A DNA stretch of 64,000 nucleotides from Limosilactobacillus fermentum (GTDB lineage: Bacteria > Bacillota > Bacilli > Lactobacillales > Lactobacillaceae): positions 444,546 to 508,545 of the forward strand of contig NZ_CP040910.1 of the NCBI RefSeq assembly GCF_013394085.1, in the 5' to 3' direction. The notes beneath the pieces were generated by a model. That model saw only the letters and a list, made by a program, of their open reading frames with translations. It did no database searches and was not told the origin of the DNA. Made by a program: the position numbers and the translations under genes. This document shows positions 755-41,190 of this stretch, in pieces. The stretch's first letter is position 1. Each line of letters begins with the position of its first letter.

Positions 755-866
755 GAGAGTGGAAAATAACTTCCGCTGCGGGTCGGATGTAAGAGCGCAT
801 CGTTCTTCGGCCTGCTTAGGCACTAGACCTGCGGTGATTGGCCACTTTTTCTGTCTAACATTCGGA
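755..866 (-). repeat. Intergenic hairpin element, copy A (group 1)
   Basis: Read on the minus strand this begins GAATGTTAGACAGAAA, then GTGG..AAT.ACC, GCAGGTCTAGTG, CCTAAGCAGGCCGAAGAACG and closes with the complementary arm GTTATTTTCCAC. The same blocks recur at 5515-5648, 24204-24334 and elsewhere. The central loop is about 25 bases shorter than in copies C and E. It lies between the rex stop codon and the terminator at 878-905, so the rex transcript would carry it as its 3' UTR. Confidence 0.85.
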
Positions 867-5032: not shown

Positions 5033-5154
5033 TACACAGATAACGTGGGAAATAACCGTCGGCCTAGTGGCTAAGTATGGGTGAAGAACACCGCGTTCCG
5101 CGCTAACCTCCCCCTAGCTTAACCTAACGACCTGCCAACCAGTTGTTTCCCATT
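5033..5154 (+). repeat. Intergenic hairpin element, copy B (group 2)
   Basis: It starts ACACAGATAACGTGGGAAATAACC, continues GGCCTAGTGGCTAAG and GAAGAAC, and closes with CTTAACC, CGACCTGCC and GTTGTTTCCCAT. The left flank (TTACACAGATAA) is shared with copy F, not with the GTTAGACAGAAA copies. It lies between two co-directional genes. Confidence 0.8.
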
Positions 5155-5194
5155 CCCCCTTAACGGGAATATTTCCCGGGAAATGGATGCACTT

Positions 5195-5514: not shown

Positions 5515-5648
5515 CTCGAATGTTAGACAGAAAACGTGGTAAATAACCGCCGGCCTAGTGTTTAAGCAGGCTGAAGAACGGTACATTTTGCACCACCTAT
5601 TCGGCTAGGATTAGTCAGAAGACCTGCCGAGAGGGTTGTTTCCTACTA
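5515..5648 (-). repeat. Intergenic hairpin element, copy C (group 1)
   Basis: It carries GAATGTTAGACAGAAAACGTGG, TAAATAACCGCCGGCCTAGTG, TTTAAGCAGGCTGAAGAACGG and the closing arm GACCTGCC...GGGTTGTTTCCTAC. It lies between the yigZ stop codon and the terminator at 5463-5507, so the minus-strand yigZ transcript would end with it. Confidence 0.85.
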
Positions 5649-17316: not shown

Positions 17317-17434
17317 GGTGCACCAATTTCAACCACAGGCCTAGTGACTAAGTACGGGCAAAGAACAGTGCGTGGGTACTAACTGAGGCCCTAGCTTAGC
17401 CCACGGCCTGTCGAGGAAGGTTGGTTCACACTTC
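17317..17434 (+). repeat. Intergenic hairpin element, copy D (group 2-like)
   Basis: It contains AACCACAGGCCTAGTGACTAAG, GGGCAAAGAACAGTGCG and the closing arms CTAGCTTAGCCCACGGCCTGT and GGTTGGTTCACAC. The outer arm uses CCAA...AACC/GGTTGG where copies B and E use AAATAACC/GGTTATTT, a paired change. It sits between the co-directional galU and the T-box transcription unit. Confidence 0.8.
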
Positions 17435-23225: not shown

Positions 23226-24152
23226 ATGAGTAAAATCTATGATTCTGTTGATCAATTAATTGGTAACACCCCGCTGGTTAGGTTAAACCGGTTAGTGGAA
23301 CCAGGGATGGCCGACGTTTACCTGAAGCTGGAATCCTTAAACCCGGCTGGCTCGATCAAGGATCGGATCGCCCTAGCGATGGTCGAAAAGGCTGAACAAG
23401 AGGGTAAGCTCACCCCCGGGGGGACGATTGTGGAGCCAACTTCAGGAAACACCGGGATTGGCCTGGCGATGGTGGCGGCCGCTAAGGGCTATCACTTGGT
23501 GATCGTAATGCCGGAAACGATGTCTGTAGAACGGCGTAAGATGATGCAAGGTTACGGGGCCGAACTAATCCTGACGCCCGGGGACGCCGGAATGAAGGGC
23601 TCGATTGAAAAGGCGACCGAATTGGTTAACGAGAAGGGCTACTTCATGCCGATGCAGTTTGAAAACCCGGCTAACCCGGCCATTCACGAACAAACGACCG
23701 GCCAAGAGATCATTAACGCCTTTGGCAAGGAGAACCTCCCCGACGCCTTTGTGGCGGGGGTCGGGACCGGTGGGACCCTGACCGGGGTTGGCCGGGCCCT
23801 CAAGAAGGTCGATGATCAGGTCAAGGTCTACGCCCTGGAACCAGCGGAATCACCGTTACTCAAGGAAGGACACGGTGGCAAGCACAAGATTCAAGGGATC
23901 TCGGCCGGCTTTATCCCGGCCACCCTCGACCAGGAAATCTACGACGGGGTGGTCGAGATTTCAAGCGAAGAGGCAATCAAGACGGCCCAAGCGGTGGCCC
24001 AACAAGAAGGGATTTCGATTGGGATCTCGGCGGGGGCAAACGTGGCCGGCTCCCTCCAGTTGGCTAAGCAACTGGGGGCCGGCCATAAGGTCGTGACGGT
24101 CGCCCCAGATGGTGGGGACCGCTACCTATCAACCGACCTTTACAACTTTTAA
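23226..24152 (+). CDS. cysK: Cysteine synthase (O-acetylserine sulfhydrylase)
   Basis: CysK makes cysteine from O-acetylserine and sulfide using PLP. The 308-residue protein has IGNTPLVRLNRL, the PLP lysine in NPAGSIKDRIA (near 45), the substrate loop EPTSGNTGIGLA (near 70) and the phosphate loop GTGGTLTGVG. GGAAGATGTCC precedes the ATG at 23226; an ATG at 23208 would lie in the leader. It is the third gene of the trxB-metA-like-cysK unit. It ends convergent with ilvE, sharing the terminator at 24160. Confidence 0.96.
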   Translation: MSKIYDSVDQLIGNTPLVRLNRLVEPGMADVYLKLESLNPAGSIKDRIALAMVEKAEQEGKLTPGGTIVEPTSGNTGIGLAMVAAAKGYHLVIVMPETMSVERRKMMQGYGAELILTPGDAGMKGSIEKATELVNEKGYFMPMQFENPANPAIHEQTTGQEIINAFGKENLPDAFVAGVGTGGTLTGVGRALKKVDDQVKVYALEPAESPLLKEGHGGKHKIQGISAGFIPATLDQEIYDGVVEISSEEAIKTAQAVAQQEGISIGISAGANVAGSLQLAKQLGAGHKVVTVAPDGGDRYLSTDLYNF

Positions 24153-24159
24153 TCAATCA

Positions 24160-24196
24160 AAAAGAGGCTGAGGAAATCTGTTTTCCCAGCCTCTTA
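24160..24196. terminator. Bidirectional terminator between cysK and ilvE
   Basis: AAGAGGCTGAGGAAA and TTTTCCCAGCCTCTT form a near-perfect hairpin with T runs on both strands. It belongs to the GAGGCTGGGA terminator family. Confidence 0.92.
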
Positions 24197-24203
24197 TTTT
24201 ATT

Positions 24204-24334
24204 CCTGAATGTTAGAAAGAAAACGTGGAAAATAACCGCAGGTCTAGTGCCTAAGTAGGCCGAAGAACGGTGCGTACCGCATCAACCGTTCGTCCGATCT
24301 TACATACGACCTGCCAAGGAGGTTATTTCCCACT
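24204..24334 (-). repeat. Intergenic hairpin element, copy E (group 1, best conserved)
   Basis: On the plus strand: GAATGTTAGAAAGAAAACGTGG, AAAATAACCGCAGGTCTAGTG, CCTAAGTAGGCCGAAGAACGGTGCG, then CTTACATACGACCTGCC and GGAGGTTATTTCCCACTCC. Outer arms GTGGAAAATAACC/GGTTATTTCCCAC and inner arms GCAGGTC/GACCTGC pair almost perfectly. It lies between the ilvE stop codon and the terminator at 24160-24196, so it would be in the ilvE 3' UTR. Confidence 0.88.
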
Positions 24335-24341
24335 CCATTGA

Positions 24342-25370
24342 TTACTTAACGTGAGTGATCCAGCCGTGGGTGTCTTCTAAGTCACCTTCTTGGATCCCGT
24401 AAAGGGTGTTGTAAAGCTTGGTCGTAACCGGTCCGACTTCTTTTTCGGAGTAGAAGACGTGCTTTTGGCCCTTGTAAGTTAAGGAGCCCACCGGTGAAAT
24501 CACGGCGGCGGTCCCCATTGCGCCGGCTTCAGCAAAGTCATCGAGTTCCTTGTCAATTTCGATCTTACGTTCAACCGGGTTGAGGCCCAAGTCGTCAGCG
24601 AGAACTAGGAGCGACTTCTTAGTGATGGATGGCAGGATCGAGTCGGACTTTGGCGTTACGAACTGACCATCCTTAGTGATACCAAAGAAGTTGGCGCCAG
24701 AGAATTCATCGATGTACTTGTGTTCGCGTGGGTCGAGGTAGAGGCAGTCGGCAAAGCCAGCCTTCTTGGCCTCAATTTCTGGCAGGAGCGAGCTAGCGTA
24801 GTTCCCGGACGTCTTGGCTTGACCAGTTCCGGCACCGGCCGCCCGGTCGTAGTTGGAAACCGTGTACGGGGAAGGAGCGAGGCCGTTGATGTAGGCACCA
24901 ACCGGGGTGGCGTAAATGTGGAAGGTGTAGGTGTCGGCCGGGGCAACCCCCACGATGGGTTGGGTCCCAATCAAAAATGGCCGGATGTAGAGGGAACCGC
25001 CCGTCCCGTACGGTGGGACAAATTCCTCGTTGGCGAGAACAACTTGCTTAACGGCCTCGACGAACTTGTCTTTCGGGTAGGGTTCCATCAGCATTCGCTT
25101 GGCAGAGTTAGCGAGCCGCTTGGCGTTTTCTTCGGGGCGGAATAAGTTGATGTGTCCATCCTTGGTCCGGTAGGCCTTGAGCCCTTCAAAAACCTCCTGG
25201 CCGTAGTGGAGTACTTCGGCGGCTTCCGAGAGGGTTAAAGTGGAGCTTTCGGTCAGCGTACCACCTTGCCATTGGCCATCCTTAAACTCTTCGTTGAAGC
25301 TGTACGGCAGGTCGTGGTATTCAAAGCCCAGGTGGTTCCAATCCAGGTTAGCGACGGTTGCTTTTGCCAT
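24342..25370 (-). CDS. ilvE: Branched-chain amino acid aminotransferase
   Basis: IlvE interconverts Leu/Ile/Val with their 2-oxo acids using PLP and glutamate/2-oxoglutarate. The 342-residue fold-type IV enzyme shows GQEVFEGLKAYR (near 56), LYIRPFLIGT, the substrate/PLP region TSGNYASSLLPEIEAKKAG (catalytic Lys near 200), EFSGANFF and SILPSITKKSLLVLA. The ATG at 25368-25370 (minus) follows GAGGAGGAA; the longer in-frame reading has no leader. It lies 25 bases downstream of the L-hydroxyisocaproate dehydrogenase on the same strand, so the two would convert branched-chain amino acids to hydroxy acids while reoxidising NADH. Confidence 0.95.
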   Translation of the reverse strand: MAKATVANLDWNHLGFEYHDLPYSFNEEFKDGQWQGGTLTESSTLTLSEAAEVLHYGQEVFEGLKAYRTKDGHINLFRPEENAKRLANSAKRMLMEPYPKDKFVEAVKQVVLANEEFVPPYGTGGSLYIRPFLIGTQPIVGVAPADTYTFHIYATPVGAYINGLAPSPYTVSNYDRAAGAGTGQAKTSGNYASSLLPEIEAKKAGFADCLYLDPREHKYIDEFSGANFFGITKDGQFVTPKSDSILPSITKKSLLVLADDLGLNPVERKIEIDKELDDFAEAGAMGTAAVISPVGSLTYKGQKHVFYSEKEVGPVTTKLYNTLYGIQEGDLEDTHGWITHVK

Positions 25371-25395
25371 AAATGTGTTCCTCCTCAATGAACGG

Positions 25396-26337
25396 TTAGT
25401 CTTCTTGGTCAGCGGCTTCCAGCGACTCGGCAAACTTTTGCTTGATGAAGTCAGCGGAAACTTGAAGCTTTTGCAACTCTTCTGCGGTCAGGTCTAATTG
25501 GCACTGTTCGACGATTCCATCGCGCCCGACCACGGCCGGGTAGGAAAGGTAGACGCCGTATTCCTCGCGGTAGTTTGAAACCGGCAGTTCGGTTAGGGCG
25601 TTAGAGAGAATCGTGTTAACCAGGCGAACGGCGGCCGTGGCCACCCCGTAGCTGGTGTACTTCTTTCCATGAAAAACAATGAAGCCACCTTCGCGGGCCG
25701 CCTTATCCAGGTCCACCAGGTCCAAGCCCTTTTGGTCGGCGATTTGCTCGATTGGCTTCCCCAAGACCCGGACGGTTGACCAAGCGGTGAACTGAGAGTT
25801 ACCGTGTTCACCAAGGTTGTAGCCGGCCACGGAGCGGGGGTCGAGGTTGAGCTTCTTGGCAACGGCGCGCTTCATCCTGGCGGAGTCCAAGAGCGTCCCG
25901 GTTCCGATCACGTGGTTCTTTGGCAAGCCGGTAATTTCTTGGTATAAGGAGGTGATCACGTCGACCGGGTTAGTGATGGCGACGATGATCCCGTTGAAGC
26001 CAACTTCCTTAAGCTTTGTGGCGACCTTTTTGACCTGAACCCGGGTGTAGGGTAGTTCGGCAAAGCGGTCATCGTCGGGGTTATCTTGGAGCTTAATGTT
26101 ACCAAGGGCGGAAACCACCACGTCAGCGTCGGCTAGGGCCTCGTAGTCGTTAACGAAGATATTAGTGTGATATTCCAGGTTAGCCATCGCATCTTCAAAG
26201 TCGACGGCATCGGCCACCACCTTTTCTTCGCGCGGATCAATTAGGACGAGGTCGTCGGTAAACCCGCCGGCGACTAAGTAGTGGGCGACGGTTGCACCAA
26301 CGTTCCCCATCCCAACAACAGCAACTTTTCGTGCCAT
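25396..26337 (-). CDS. hicD: L-2-hydroxyisocaproate dehydrogenase
   Basis: An NAD-dependent L-2-hydroxyacid dehydrogenase of the lactate/malate dehydrogenase fold, 313 residues. The NAD loop is [13 protein letters not shown] (about 9-21). The blocks [42 protein letters not shown] and [20 protein letters not shown] (catalytic His near 198) match the Weissella confusa L-HicDH type rather than classical L-LDH. It reduces branched-chain 2-oxo acids, which the adjacent ilvE produces. AGGAGATGTTCAA precedes the ATG. The gene reads away from the HAD phosphatase across a 126-base gap holding both promoters. Confidence 0.92.
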
Positions 26338-26432
26338 TTGAACATCTCCTTTACACTGTTGTCTAATTTTCTAATTATTTTTTAATATAGCGCGTTGAAA
26401 AGGAAAGTGCAACGATTATTTTAGCGAAGTGA

Positions 26433-26441
26433 TGGTAAAAT
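26433..26441 (+). promoter_or_regulatory. Extended -10 promoter motif of the HAD gene
   Basis: TGGTAAAAT lies 22 bases before the ATG at 26464; no -35 is obvious. Confidence 0.5.
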
Positions 26442-26463
26442 GTTTGGGAAAGGGGGACTTACC

Positions 26464-27240
26464 ATGACCAATTACCTCGTTTCTGACCTTGATCACACCC
26501 TATTAAACGAACGGGGCGCCCTGAGTCCGGTCACCCAAGCGGCGGTTGCGGCCGTAGCCGATCGAGTGATGCTGGCGTCGGCCCGCCACCCCGGGCAGAT
26601 GACGGTTTTGATTGACCAACTGGGCTTGACGGGTCCCCAGGTGGCCTTAAACGGCGCCCTGATTTTTGCGGGGGCCAGTGGGGAGACTTTGAGGGCGCAG
26701 CCAATCGATGACCGGGATGCCCAAGCGGTGGTGGAGTTGGTAGCCGAACGCTTCGGGGAGGTTAACTTCACCTGGATGGACGCGGCGGCTTGGCACGTTA
26801 GCTTTGTTGACGCGGCCGTCGAGTTCGATCAATGCCTAGTTCCCGTTCCCCTAGCAATGGATGGTTTAAAACCGGCCGGCGCCCTGATGTTGTTGATGAT
26901 CGTCAGCGACCCGGGGATGTTTCAAACGTTGGGGCAGTTGTTGAAAAGCGCCTTTCCTAAGCTGACGATCAGCCCGGCTGGTGACGGGTACCTAACGATC
27001 ACGGCGCCGGGGGTTGATAAGGGACGGGCGGTTGACTACCTTGTTAGTACCGGAATTTCCCGGGCGAAGGTGGTGGCCGTTGGCGATGACGAAAACGACT
27101 TACCCTTATTAAACCGGGCCGGGCACGCCGCCGCGGTTGGCAATGCCGCTTCAGTGGTTAAACAACGGGCGCAGGTCCTGTTGCCAACTAATGAAGAAGA
27201 TGGGGTAGCGACTTTGATTAAATCGTGGTCTTCTATTTAA
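26464..27240 (+). CDS. HAD superfamily (Cof-type) phosphatase
   Basis: A 258-residue haloacid dehalogenase-fold hydrolase of the Cof/YidA type. Motif I is SDLDHTLLNERG (Asp8 and Asp10 region), motif II is near LASARHPGQM, and motif III/IV is VVAVGDDENDLPLLNRAGHAAAVGNA at the C-terminus. The cap domain lies in the middle. Such enzymes dephosphorylate sugar phosphates, nucleotides or FMN; the substrate cannot be read from sequence. AAAGGGGGACTTACC precedes the ATG at 26464, so the ATG at 26440 is upstream of the leader and rejected. It is followed closely by pgcA. Confidence 0.86.
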   Translation: MTNYLVSDLDHTLLNERGALSPVTQAAVAAVADRVMLASARHPGQMTVLIDQLGLTGPQVALNGALIFAGASGETLRAQPIDDRDAQAVVELVAERFGEVNFTWMDAAAWHVSFVDAAVEFDQCLVPVPLAMDGLKPAGALMLLMIVSDPGMFQTLGQLLKSAFPKLTISPAGDGYLTITAPGVDKGRAVDYLVSTGISRAKVVAVGDDENDLPLLNRAGHAAAVGNAASVVKQRAQVLLPTNEEDGVATLIKSWSSI

Positions 27241-27302
27241 CCCCTTACACGAGTGCGGTATACTAAAACTATTGAAATAAACACCATAAGGAGATGCTTG
27301 CT

Positions 27303-29027
27303 GTGACCTGGAAAGATACCTACCAAGAATGGTTAAACCAAGACCAATTGGAACCAGCGCTGAAAGAACAACTCGTAGCAATGGATGATGACCAAGAGAA
27401 AGAGGACGCCTTTTATGGCCCGCTTTCCTTTGGGACGGCCGGAATGCGGGGACTGATGGGTCCCGGGATTAACCGGATGAACGTTTACACGGTTCGCCAG
27501 GCCACGGCCGGGTTGGCCAAGTTAATGACCAGCTTGGGGGAAGAAACGATGGCCCGTGGGGTGGCCATCTCTTACGACTCCCGGAATAACTCCCGCCTCT
27601 TCGCCCACGAAGCAGCCCGGGTTTTAGGGGCCCAGGGGATCAAGACCTACATTTATGACGACCTGCGCCCAACGCCAGAATTGTCCTTTGCCGTCCGGCA
27701 CCTGCACACCTACGCCGGGATCATGATCACGGCTAGCCATAACCCGAAGGAATACAACGGCTACAAGATCTACGGTGAAGACGGTGGTCAGATGCCACCG
27801 AAGGAATCGGACATGATGACCGGCTACATCCGCCAAATCGAAGACCTCTTTAACATCGAATTAGCTGACGAAGAAGAACTTAAGGCCCAGGGCTTAGAGG
27901 TTGTAATCGGCGAAGAAGTCGACCAAGCCTACCTGGCCAACGTTAAGACGGTTACGGTCAACAGCGACTTGGCCACGGAATTTGGCAAGGACATGAAGTT
28001 TGTCTACACCCCGTTGTGTGGGACTGGCCGGATGCTCGGGGAACGGGCCCTCAAGCAAGCGGGCTTCACTAACTACGAGCTGGTTGAAGAAGAAGCAGCG
28101 CCGAACGGGGACTTCCCGGGCTTAAAGAACCCGAACCCGGAATTTCCGGAAGCCTTCGTGCGGGCAACGGCCCTCGGGAAGAAAGTCGACGCCGATATCT
28201 TAATCGCAACCGACCCGGATGCCGACCGGCTGGGCTGCGCGGTTCGCCAACCAAACGGTGAGTACCAATTGTTGACCGGGAACCAAATTGCCGCCGTCTT
28301 GCTCCACTACATCTTGGAAGCTAACAAACAGGCCGGTACCCTGCCGGACAACGCGGCAGCCGTTAAGTCAATCGTTTCAACGAACTTTGCCACCAAGATC
28401 GCCCAAAGTTACGGGGTAACGATGGTCAATGTTTTGACCGGGTTTAAGTGGATTGCTGACCAAATTCACCAATACGAAACCAAGCACAACCACACCTTCA
28501 TGTTTGGGTTTGAAGAATCCTACGGTTACCTGATCAAGCCGTTCGTTCGCGACAAGGATGCCATCCAGACCCTGGTCTTGTTGGCAGAAGTGGCCGCATA
28601 CTACCGGAGCCGGGAAATGACTTTATTTGACGGGGTGCAAGAACTCTTTACCAAGTACGGTTACTTCAAGGAAAAGACGATCTCAACGATTTACGCCGGG
28701 GTGCAAGGACCAGCCAAGATCGCTGCTTTGATGAAGAAGTTCCGTGAAGAAGCGCCGCAGGACTTTGCCGGGGTCAAGATTGAAGAGACCGAAGACTTCG
28801 CCAAGGATACCAAGACTTTGGCCGACGGAACCGTGGAAAAGCTGGGAATGCCAAATTCGAACGTCTTACGCTACGTCTTGGCCGACGAAACTTGGATCGC
28901 CATCCGGCCGTCCGGGACCGAGCCGAAGCTGAAGTTCTACATTGGAACGGCCGGGTCAAGCAACCAGGAGGCTAACCAAAAACTGGCAGACTTTGAAGCA
29001 GCCCTAACTGCGTTTGCAAATGAATAA
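27303..29027 (+). CDS. pgcA: Phosphoglucomutase (alpha-D-phosphohexomutase)
   Basis: It interconverts glucose 6-phosphate and glucose 1-phosphate, feeding UDP-glucose through galU. The 574-residue enzyme has SFGTAGMRGLMGPG near the N-terminus, the phosphoserine loop TASHNPKEYNGYKIYG (Ser near 144), the metal loop ATDPDADRLG and the sugar-specificity motif GFEESYGYL, with RPSGTEPKLKFY near the end. Length is typical of PgcA. AAGGAG at 27287-27292 places the start at GTG 27303; the ATG at 27294 is only one base from it. A terminator and repeat copy F follow. Confidence 0.94.
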   Translation: MTWKDTYQEWLNQDQLEPALKEQLVAMDDDQEKEDAFYGPLSFGTAGMRGLMGPGINRMNVYTVRQATAGLAKLMTSLGEETMARGVAISYDSRNNSRLFAHEAARVLGAQGIKTYIYDDLRPTPELSFAVRHLHTYAGIMITASHNPKEYNGYKIYGEDGGQMPPKESDMMTGYIRQIEDLFNIELADEEELKAQGLEVVIGEEVDQAYLANVKTVTVNSDLATEFGKDMKFVYTPLCGTGRMLGERALKQAGFTNYELVEEEAAPNGDFPGLKNPNPEFPEAFVRATALGKKVDADILIATDPDADRLGCAVRQPNGEYQLLTGNQIAAVLLHYILEANKQAGTLPDNAAAVKSIVSTNFATKIAQSYGVTMVNVLTGFKWIADQIHQYETKHNHTFMFGFEESYGYLIKPFVRDKDAIQTLVLLAEVAAYYRSREMTLFDGVQELFTKYGYFKEKTISTIYAGVQGPAKIAALMKKFREEAPQDFAGVKIEETEDFAKDTKTLADGTVEKLGMPNSNVLRYVLADETWIAIRPSGTEPKLKFYIGTAGSSNQEANQKLADFEAALTAFANE

Positions 29028-29034
29028 TTTTAAT

Positions 29035-29073
29035 GAGGGGGTTGGGGAAACGCTGGTTTCTTCCGCCCCTTTG
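29035..29073 (+). terminator. pgcA terminator
   Basis: GGGG...GGGAAAC and GTTTCTTCCGCCCC form an imperfect stem followed by TTTG. Confidence 0.75.
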
Positions 29074-29083
29074 TTAAATCCAC

Positions 29084-29212
29084 TATGTTACACAGATAAT
29101 GTGGTCACCAACCGCAGGCCTAGTGTCTAAGCAGGCCAAAGAACGCTACGTGCCATGACAACCTTCGACTAAGCTTAGTCATACGGCCTGCATTAGGGTT
29201 GGTTCCCACTCC
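29084..29212 (+). repeat. Intergenic hairpin element, copy F (group 2)
   Basis: TTACACAGATAATGTGG is followed by TCACCAACCGCAGGCCTAGTG, TCTAAGCAGGCCAAAGAACG, then CTAAGCTTAGTCATACGGCCTGC and GGGTTGGTTCCCACTCC. The outer arm is ACCAACC/GGTTGGT, where copy E has AAATAACC/GGTTATTT. It sits between co-directional genes, upstream of the HD hydrolase. Confidence 0.85.
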
Positions 29213-29241
29213 ACTCACCTTTTAGAAAAGAGAGAATCACC

Positions 29242-29877
29242 ATGGGAATGCATGAATACCTTAAGAGCCTAAGCGACCTGGAAATGATCAACCGGGCACC
29301 GGGCTACTTTAAATTTGAAGAACATAACGTGGCCGCCCACTCCTTTAAGGTGACCCAAGCGGCCCAGATGTTGGGCGACATTGAAGAACAAGCTGGTAAC
29401 GAAATCAACTGGCGCTCCCTGTACGAGAAGGCGCTTAACCACGATTACACCGAGCGCTTCATCGGCGATATTAAGACGCCGGTTAAGTACGCCACCCCCG
29501 AGTTGCGTACGATGTTAGCCAAGGTCGACCGGTCGCTAACCGAGAATTTCATCCAATCTGAAATCCCGGCCGAGTTCCGGGCGGCCTACGAACGGCGGCT
29601 AGGTGAGGGCAAGGATGAGAGCTTGGAGGGGCAGATTTTATCGGTGGCCGACAAGATTGACCTGATGTACGAATCTTTTGAAGAGATCCAAAAGGGCAAC
29701 CCGGAGCCAGTTTACATGGATATCTACCGCTCCAGCCTGGAGGCGATCATGGACTTTTCCAACCTGGCCAGCGTTCAGTACTTTTTAAAGAAGATTTTGC
29801 CGGAACTGTTAAAGGATAACGTCGCCACCAACAGCCAACAGCTAGCCATCATCACCACCCAGATTATTCAAAGGTAA
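29242..29877 (+). CDS. HD-domain hydrolase, YfbR-like
   Basis: A 211-residue HD-domain phosphohydrolase. Metal ligands are visible in EEHNVAAHSFKVTQ (His near 34 and 38) and in LNHDYTERFIGD (HD near 75), with a later D in ILSVADKIDLMYES. The pattern resembles YfbR 5'-deoxynucleotidases, which hydrolyse dNMPs, but the substrate is inferred from family resemblance only. GAAAAGAGAG precedes the ATG. A small membrane protein gene starts five bases after its stop and is probably co-transcribed. Confidence 0.83.
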   Translation: MGMHEYLKSLSDLEMINRAPGYFKFEEHNVAAHSFKVTQAAQMLGDIEEQAGNEINWRSLYEKALNHDYTERFIGDIKTPVKYATPELRTMLAKVDRSLTENFIQSEIPAEFRAAYERRLGEGKDESLEGQILSVADKIDLMYESFEEIQKGNPEPVYMDIYRSSLEAIMDFSNLASVQYFLKKILPELLKDNVATNSQQLAIITTQIIQR

Positions 29878-36283: not shown

Positions 36284-36362
36284 GAAGGTGGGAACTCACC
36301 AACCACGTAGCCCCAAGTGAAGGGCCACGGTTGGTTGGCGCACTTTCTGTCTAACGTTCGTG
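36284..36362 (+). repeat. Intergenic hairpin element, copy G (group 1, shortened)
   Basis: On the minus strand it begins CGAACGTTAGACAGAAAG, then GTGCGCCAACCAACC and the closing arm GGTTGGTGAGTTCCCACC. The middle third seen in other copies is missing. It lies between the exonuclease stop and the terminator at 36371-36409. Confidence 0.75.
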
Positions 36363-39360: not shown

Positions 39361-39382
39361 TGTCTTTAAAACTAATGTTCCT

Positions 39383-39433
39383 GCTCTAGCTTGGTCAAAC
39401 GGCCCGTATCGGAGGTTGGGCCGCACGCTTCTT
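39383..39433 (-). repeat. Intergenic hairpin element, copy H (remnant)
   Basis: Only the right part of the element remains: CTCTAGCTTGGTCAAACGGCCCG and GGAGGTTGGGCCGCACGC, matching CTAAGCTTAGTCATACGGCCTGC and GGTTGGTTCCCAC of copy F. It lies between the tenA end and the terminator. Confidence 0.6.
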
Positions 39434-41101: not shown

Positions 41102-41190
41102 AATGTTAGGTAGAAAAAAGGTGGAGATGATCAGCATCTTAACCAGATTTCGGCCATAGAAGGCGGTGCTCCCCCCGGGACAGTCGGCGA
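41102..41190 (-). repeat. Intergenic hairpin element, copy J (degenerate)
   Basis: It retains AATGTTAGGTAGAAAAAAGGTGG and TTTCGGCC.TAGAAGGCGGTGC, recognisable against GAATGTTAGACAGAAAACGTGG and AGGCCGAAGAACGGTGCG. It again lies between the stop codon of a minus-strand gene (41207) and a terminator (41053-41085). Confidence 0.5.

Follow-up and report, generated by a model that had tools for sequence, protein, structure and literature searches.

Results

A family of folded intergenic repeats in the window

The window, by which we mean the entire 64,000-nt stretch that was analysed (G000:C1:444546-508545), carries at the locus under study an intergenic unit made up of a terminator-like hairpin, a spacer and a core hairpin; further copies and remnants are found elsewhere in the window (Table 1). 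Ten copies had been listed in the initial annotation. Seven of them were recovered by covariance model or profile, whereas those at 36284, 41102 and 57060 matched neither the covariance model at E ≤ 0.01 nor the profile in nhmmer at E ≤ 1e-3. By eye, terminator, spacer and scraps remain at 41102 and 57060, and judging from their sequence the three sites are remnants at best. When single copies were folded and compared with shuffles, a clear excess was seen for 24224, 29100 and 5044, and a weak one or none for the other window copies.

Table 1. Copies, parts and remnants of the repeat in the window
Feature	Position in window	Strand	Evidence
Core copy, shortened; terminator-like hairpin after it at ~880-910	757..846	-	CM R1 41.9 bits; z 0.32 in element direction, -2.9 on other strand
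Core hairpin copy	5044..5155	+	CM R1 74.5 bits; z -3.5 (+), -4.9 (-)
Core hairpin copy	5535..5648	+	CM R1 92.7 bits; z -1.8 (+), -1.8 (-), a weak fold for the single sequence
Core hairpin copy, 5' outer arm decayed	17321..17427	+	CM R1 51.2 bits; z -2.2, -2.4 (17330-17434)
Terminator-like hairpin GAGGCTGAGGA...TCCCAGCCTC, A-run left, T-rich right; left of core	24164..24194	.	Sequence
Spacer with motif AATGTTAGAnAGAAAA ahead of CGTGG	24195..24223	.	Alignment with flanks of own-genome copies
Core hairpin, A-type copy (locus of the initial annotation)	24224..24335	+	CM R1 120.7 bits; fold z -5.1 (+), -4.65 (-)
Core hairpin copy, outer arm ACCAACC/GGTTGGT	29100..29211	+	CM R1 93.5 bits; z -4.0 (+), -5.5 (-)
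Putative remnant: outer arms and spacer, middle lost	36284..36345	-	By eye; no covariance-model match
3' piece of core, immediately right of terminator-like hairpin	39382..39426 (genome 483927-483971)	+	nhmmer 22.4 bits, model 68-112

The observation of a folded intergenic repeat family was thus confirmed, and the family proved larger than originally drawn. Of the two sequence blocks said to be shared between copies, CTAAGCAGGCCGAAGAAC stood out with four occurrences at up to three mismatches (0.05 expected), but GCAGGCCTAGTG taken alone barely did, as its seven occurrences at up to two mismatches (3.3 expected) were equalled in 6 of 100 shuffles. Searching the whole window with the 4227 Rfam models at gathering scores returned two tRNAs only; positions 23900-29500 gave no match at E ≤ 1, and none of the four matches obtained at E ≤ 1 in five array loci lay over a core. 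We found no paper describing the family in the literature surveyed, which was mostly open-access, ISfinder aside; in the passages of PMC12306157 covered here lactobacilli are absent, and in the covered part of PMC2267715 L. johnsonii appears in one table line. Hence the view that the repeat belongs to no named family stands for these sources. A T-box leader match at L137:4162-4402 (minus strand, 79.4 bits) is a separate observation and lies under the Rfam gathering score of 93.

Architecture of the unit

Alignment of 39 copies from the own genome together with their flanks defined a core of ~114 nt, which starts with CGTGG and ends with CCACTC. Left of the core lies a spacer of ~30 nt, in which GTTAGACAGAAAA or GTTACACAGATAA is found. 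Many copies also have a terminator-like hairpin (GAGGCTGGGA...TCCCAGCCTC), bordered by an A-run and a T-run, on the left of the spacer, and this side is fixed. A mechanical scan of 138 clusters, three of the 141 being excluded for incomplete flanks, detected such a hairpin in 82 left and 20 right flanks compared to 4 of 138 shuffled left flanks, and the order hairpin-spacer-core was also seen by eye in ~20 of 28 loci of other species. Compared to the 80-135 bp proposed initially, the unit is larger and includes core, spacer and often the terminator-like hairpin. The core is predicted to fold into one long hairpin with helices P1 (13 pairs), P2 (7), P3 (6), P4 (7) and P5 (6); the three arms postulated before are predicted to belong to this single bulged hairpin. 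Its fixed irregularities are a one-sided CGAGGA-like bulge at the P1/P2 junction, a TAGTG stretch that is largely unpaired, and mismatches at constant positions. A short insert, CGACGCGAAGCTAG, is shared by the P1 arms of L199, L200, L203 and the G036 copy at C3:1694157.

Units of the B type (CGTGCTCCCCAACC...) form tandem arrays that repeat about every 120 bp. Among all 141 clusters, 107 contain one unit, 24 two, eight three, one four and one six, and the B-type arrays would likely lengthen or shorten by unequal recombination or slippage. Of the partial copies (n = 24), three lack the 3' end and 21 the 5' end; in four of the latter no more than 12-22 positions are missing. Many partial copies sit immediately left of a full unit. 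Two further arrangements were noted. First, the cores near 111381, 587715, 748816, 1518475, 1704183 and 1855351 of G000 each lie between the two halves of another palindromic repeat (ACAAATnTnnAnATTTGCGCAA to the left, the inverse to the right), an arrangement that would result from insertion at its centre. Second, G000:C1:402948-406081 (L018) and 417053-420186 (L017), which are ~14 kb apart, have identical cores and near flanks, as if located within a duplicated stretch.

The repeats are found mainly at gene ends

In 499 kb of G000, i.e. ~26% of this single-contig genome of 1,887,974 bp in stretches chosen round copies, we counted 189 non-overlapping whole or partial copies, 165 of which are near full length. 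Whole-genome copy counts are lower bounds, the best 150 of 828 candidates having been scored in G000. The region G000:C1:1600000-1887974 spans 15% of the genome and is copy-dense: by hand count, it holds at least 46 of the 147 matches scored. The idea that copies track the replication origin was dropped, as there is no matching rise beyond position 1.

When genes were called as simple ORFs of at least 90 aa, 13 of the 189 copies overlapped such an ORF by more than 40 nt. The neighbours of 178 copies are convergent in 87 cases, run along the same strand in 43 and 39 (the two orientations) and are divergent in 9. The small, structured repeats are therefore intergenic and enriched between convergent genes, which account for 69 of 241 gaps in the intergenic baseline taken from the same stretches chosen round copies. 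In the (+,-) and (-,-) contexts, the right end of 69 out of 108 full copies is separated by no more than 30 nt from the stop codon it faces, compared to 2 of 111 left ends that are equally close to the stop of the left gene; distances were taken per copy, so that inner units of arrays come out farther from genes.

Arm sequences change while pairing is retained

The claim that both sides of an arm change together between copies was borne out in the own genome as well as across species. An alignment of 41 own-genome copies, built from sequence only, has 90.8% of its cells paired and double-sided changes in 23 of 41 pairs; 76 double-changed cells were counted versus 22.9 after shuffling (0 of 500), and slid controls yielded 6-13 pairs. 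A set of 52 copies, comprising 26 from the own genome, 24 from 24 other genomes of the genus and two from plasmids, gave double-sided changes in 35 of 39 pairs and 325 double-changed cells versus 95.6 (0 of 500), with 14-23 pairs in slid controls; L187 and L188 are the copies from outside the genus that were aligned for covariation. Alignments A4 and A5, which were fitted to the model, are left out of these counts.

Significant covariation, named at the outset as the check on the fold, was also obtained when common descent was considered: under a tree-aware null, in which columns were simulated along one tree of 185 distinct copies by parsimony, 26 of 41 pairs reached p < 0.05 (~2 expected), and the mean covariation score of 0.155 exceeded the null mean (0.022) and the maximum of 300 nulls (0.043). 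The stricter all-against-all G-test with APC retained four of 6105 column pairs at E < 0.05, all four within drawn helices. Helix P2 is almost entirely rewritten among species with pairing retained. In the outer arms of P1, 88.3% (41 copies) and 86.2% (52 copies) of the cells pair, and their sequence is not fixed. Positions 6-108 and 27-81 are paired in just 22% of the copies.

The minus strand is predicted to fold more stably, and pairing does not vary with gene context

We designate as plus strand the one running from the terminator to CCACTC; the minus strand accordingly reads core, spacer, terminator. Mean folding energies are -57.0 kcal/mol for the minus and -49.1 kcal/mol for the plus strand, the former being more stable in 165 of 185 copies, and the dinucleotide-corrected z is lower on the minus strand in 120 of 185 copies, including 19 of the 27 from outside the own genome. 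Changes inferred to convert a Watson-Crick pair to G.U are more frequent on the minus strand (186, A.C on plus) than on the plus strand (132; p 0.003), but the first 41 copies lean the opposite way, with ~35 G.U versus 19 A.C on the plus strand (hand count, pair 38-83 omitted). As a weak control, 19 tRNAs contained 27 G.U and 0 A.C among 420 pairs, where ARAGORN may not draw A.C. Taken together, the minus strand is moderately favoured. Strand-specific mutation bias could contribute to this asymmetry or be its source.

Pairing was also compared between gene contexts and amounts to 0.901 in (+,-), 0.893 in (-,-) (n = 33), 0.904 in (+,+) (n = 36) and 0.922 in (-,+) (n = 7); full copies in (+,+) and (-,-) did not differ (p 0.37). 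The proposal that the folded form is selected is thus backed by covariation. As the contexts compared preserve pairing to the same degree, however, the data favour selection on spreading copies over a function of the RNA at individual sites. A strand preference that is independent of context is more in keeping with a moving folded strand than with a local role in 3' UTRs. An independent small RNA gene is possible too, because a terminator-like hairpin would form its 3' end on the minus strand.

Occurrence in other genomes and search for a helper

With up to 75 candidates scored per genome, matches were found in 29 of 50 genomes of the genus using the own-genome model and in 32 of 50 using a broader model. 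In a family-wide sample, in which up to nine matches were scored per genome, 29 of 396 genomes from 8 of 40 genera had matches; 15 of these genomes are from outside the genus, 13 of them with one or two matches. Furthermore, 34 plasmid records carry a match (18 of Latilactobacillus, nine of Lactiplantibacillus, three of Limosilactobacillus and four others), two of which are pieces of strain DR9. Among the 20 plasmid matches listed, 16 show an identical partial match, and the one examined turned out to be a full core adjoining asnB. Phage records gave no match, and one candidate stretch came from viral contigs. The pattern scan of genome contigs returned 11 stretches; of the four from lactobacilli, L157 and L165 are real copies and L156 and L163 lack the core. 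L157 and L165, whose records bear the names Lactiplantibacillus garii and Lactobacillaceae UBA5807, are identical over the stretch compared and contain a single core. The copy on an L. sakei plasmid (L187), located beside asnB, scores 79.2 bits, equal to L157. It is likely that L157, L165 and L187 reflect a shared plasmid.

The two DR9 records, CP033372.1 and CP033373.1 (L189-L196), are filed as plasmids of 760 and 252 kb. The larger contains ribosomal protein and tRNA ligase genes, and in both the element sites can be aligned to the chromosome of G000; they look like misfiled pieces of chromosome. Records of DR9 also provide the two best matches to the copy at 24224..24335 outside G000, which, together with the 31 element sites mapped there, makes L. 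fermentum the most likely species of G000.

A Y1 transposase was considered as helper and rejected, as PF01797 (Y1_Tnp) is present in 22 of 32 bearing and 9 of 18 non-bearing genomes (Fisher p 0.23); 10 of the 32 bearing genomes have no match to PF01797, and G000 has 15. A reverse transcriptase acting in a retro route was likewise discarded, as G000 contains no RVT_1 match. Across genomes, PF00078 (RVT_1) occurs in 14 of 32 bearing versus 2 of 18 non-bearing ones (Fisher p 0.026), with a rank correlation of 0.22 (p 0.12). Searching 26% of G000 for a parent element, i.e. left and right halves 0.2-4.5 kb apart, yielded one pair, the left half of which has E 3.7 and is at chance level.

Repeat units occupy sites that hold simple hairpins in relatives

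The genomes G036 and G037 represent close species, ~94% identical over the aligned parts of 200 kb each, repeats included, and contain six and three copies, respectively, in this comparison. One site is filled in both, whereas seven of the nine copies are unshared. At six of the seven unshared sites the other species has, by eye, a short hairpin, mostly with a T-rich tail, which is weak at the site of G036's copy 12720; the seventh is disturbed by a different insertion.

Two sites were read across the genus, where 13 of 14 returned loci were examined at site 1 and 12 of 14 at site 2. Nine of the 12 loci at site 2 have a simple short hairpin where others hold a unit of ~180 nt. In G036 and G021 the unit is bordered by GAAAA and CATTTTACT, flanks that are unchanged, and G034 has at least part of it in a disturbed context. 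The simple hairpin is present at all four loci whose flanks have diverged furthest (74-88% identity to the query) and is therefore likely the ancestral state of site 2, as judged from the loci aligned. At site 1, 12 of the 13 loci could be placed: six have a simple hairpin, four the unit and two another repeat family. The four most diverged simple-hairpin loci point likewise, but G002 and G007 hold the other repeat. An insertion with duplication of AAATAG had been considered for site 1 and was dropped after the cross-species reading, AAATAG falling in sequence that resembles the unit's own elsewhere. No target duplication is demonstrable at either of the two sites: instead of a plain interruption of the old hairpin, an exchange is seen.

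Within L. fermentum, G000 was compared to 400 kb of DR9 at flanks of at least 90% identity. Out of 136 G000 sites in all, 31 were compared, and all 31 are filled in both strains, the number of units differing at four; six of the 39 DR9 sites fall outside the G000 stretches examined. Hence, no recent jump was seen among 31 sites in these two strains.

A second repeat family, unrelated by appearance, was encountered at gene ends. It is ~130-190 nt long with several hairpins, starts near AAGGAGTTGTGACATAAG and ends near GTCTCGCTCCCTTTT, and is located in the L166-L185 region (G036/G037 sites s3, s5 and s6) and in L204 and L207; GACGCGAAGCTAG occurs in this family also. In two of the G036/G037 comparisons the other species has a simple hairpin in its place, and in G002 and G007 it is this family that occupies site 1, where other species hold the repeat studied here.

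Discussion

The family of structured small interspersed repeats is real and genus-wide. As far as tested, what is new is a shape-conserved hairpin that is joined to a terminator-like hairpin, together with the likely replacement of resident terminators. The explanation we prefer, to which we assign a probability of about 0.55, is that interspersed DNA repeats spread as a non-autonomous mobile element that is recognised by its folded shape and not by the sequence of its arms. What was observed is that copies are numerous and differ in their flanks, that changes in their arms are compensatory, that versions are species-specific, that plasmids carry copies, and that sites filled in some species hold a short simple hairpin in others. 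Mobility is likely, in view of the distribution and the sites read across species. A helper enzyme would recognise the hairpin by its shape, the moving form presumably being the folded minus strand. The hairpins adjoining the core probably act as terminators, and the element would prefer to land in, or to exchange with, terminator hairpins at the 3' ends of genes; by bringing along its own terminator, insertion would become nearly harmless. A more far-reaching version, which we offer tentatively, is that the folded minus strand of a shape-guided mobile DNA swaps the terminator of a resident gene for a larger unit with its own terminator. In lactobacilli, terminators might then be a swappable currency that is used by at least two repeat families, at the same site in different species.

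Rather unlikely, but best placed among the alternatives, is an RNA element of 3' UTRs: the minus strand would be read as stop codon, core and terminator, and the core would stabilise mRNA ends or aid termination, functions that are ascribed to REP hairpins. The close spacing of right ends, as opposed to left ends, to the facing stop codon agrees with such a role, and so do the more stable fold and the G.U bias of the minus strand. However, the two same-strand orientations are balanced, copies in the (+,+) context, which the neighbours would not transcribe in that sense, are equally well paired, and turnover between close species is high. Small size, lack of coding capacity, inverted outer arms, high copy number and empty sites would also be expected of a classical MITE of a DDE insertion sequence, moved by cut-and-paste through sequence-bound terminal inverted repeats and leaving a target duplication. 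We regard this as improbable: arm sequences vary among subfamilies and species while pairing stays, unlike in sequence-bound terminal repeats, target duplication was not seen at the two sites read, and the examined 26% of G000 contains no convincing parent. Still less probable appears a scenario without mobility, in which recombination or gene conversion between repeated terminators makes terminator regions diverse and correction by template switching keeps the arms alike. It would account for the hairpin-for-hairpin exchange at sites 1 and 2, where the A-rich and T-rich flanks are preserved, and for the stability of all compared sites within the species. Yet such correction would perfect the arms, whereas two positional pairs are rarely formed and the one-sided 6-nt bulge persists, and copies are present on plasmids of other genera. 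Finally, a SINE-like retroelement copied via RNA, which would explain the folded strand and the 5'-truncated leading units directly left of full ones, and which agrees with the more frequent RVT_1 in bearing genomes, is very improbable, given that G000, the genome richest in copies, has no RVT_1 match and that the rank correlation is weak.

A mobile element recognised by its shape can be set beside several known systems. Integron attC sites are imperfect hairpins that are recognised by shape and have variable arm sequences. The Limosilactobacillus repeat is likewise an imperfect hairpin with variable arms, but its copies are scattered at gene ends in both orientations and do not form gene-cassette arrays. 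REP and REPIN elements are extragenic folded repeats that are likely handled as single-strand hairpins. The repeat studied here is extragenic and folded, too, and is likely handled as a single-strand hairpin, but differs by a core of 114 nt and by not co-occurring with Y1_Tnp. According to the part of PMC3116915 covered here, REP/REPIN elements are moved by RAYT (Y1) transposases. Closest in behaviour, likened by description and not by sequence, are BOX, RUP and SPRITE of Streptococcus pneumoniae, for which passages of PMC3049150 report small interspersed repeats that are over-represented between convergent genes and whose new insertions are now slow, tight folding of BOX and RUP, a resemblance of SPRITE to Rho-independent terminators, and a boxB that is either absent or present in several copies. 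As far as these passages allow a comparison, the Limosilactobacillus repeat is distinguished from the three by often joining a BOX-like hairpin to a terminator-like one, by arms that covary across species, and by a unit located where relatives have a short terminator-like hairpin. ERIC is another name for RU-1. The covered part of PMC2759123 describes RU-1 as an enterobacterial intergenic repeat unit of 127 bp, and on that description, sequences not being compared, it shares intergenic position and similar size with our repeat but has other hosts.

For small interspersed repeats the relevance of the fold is often open. In the present family, the paired changes seen in 25 genomes of a single genus are a strong argument that the fold matters, and the free sequence of the arms argues that shape is kept rather than the letters of the arms. 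From the sites read across species it seems that the repeat unit has taken the place of gene terminators, and hairpin-for-hairpin exchange thereby becomes directly testable in a food bacterium. Being present at very many gene ends, the copies bear on transcript ends and on assembly in an industrially used genus, and the variation of array length between strains bears on strain typing.
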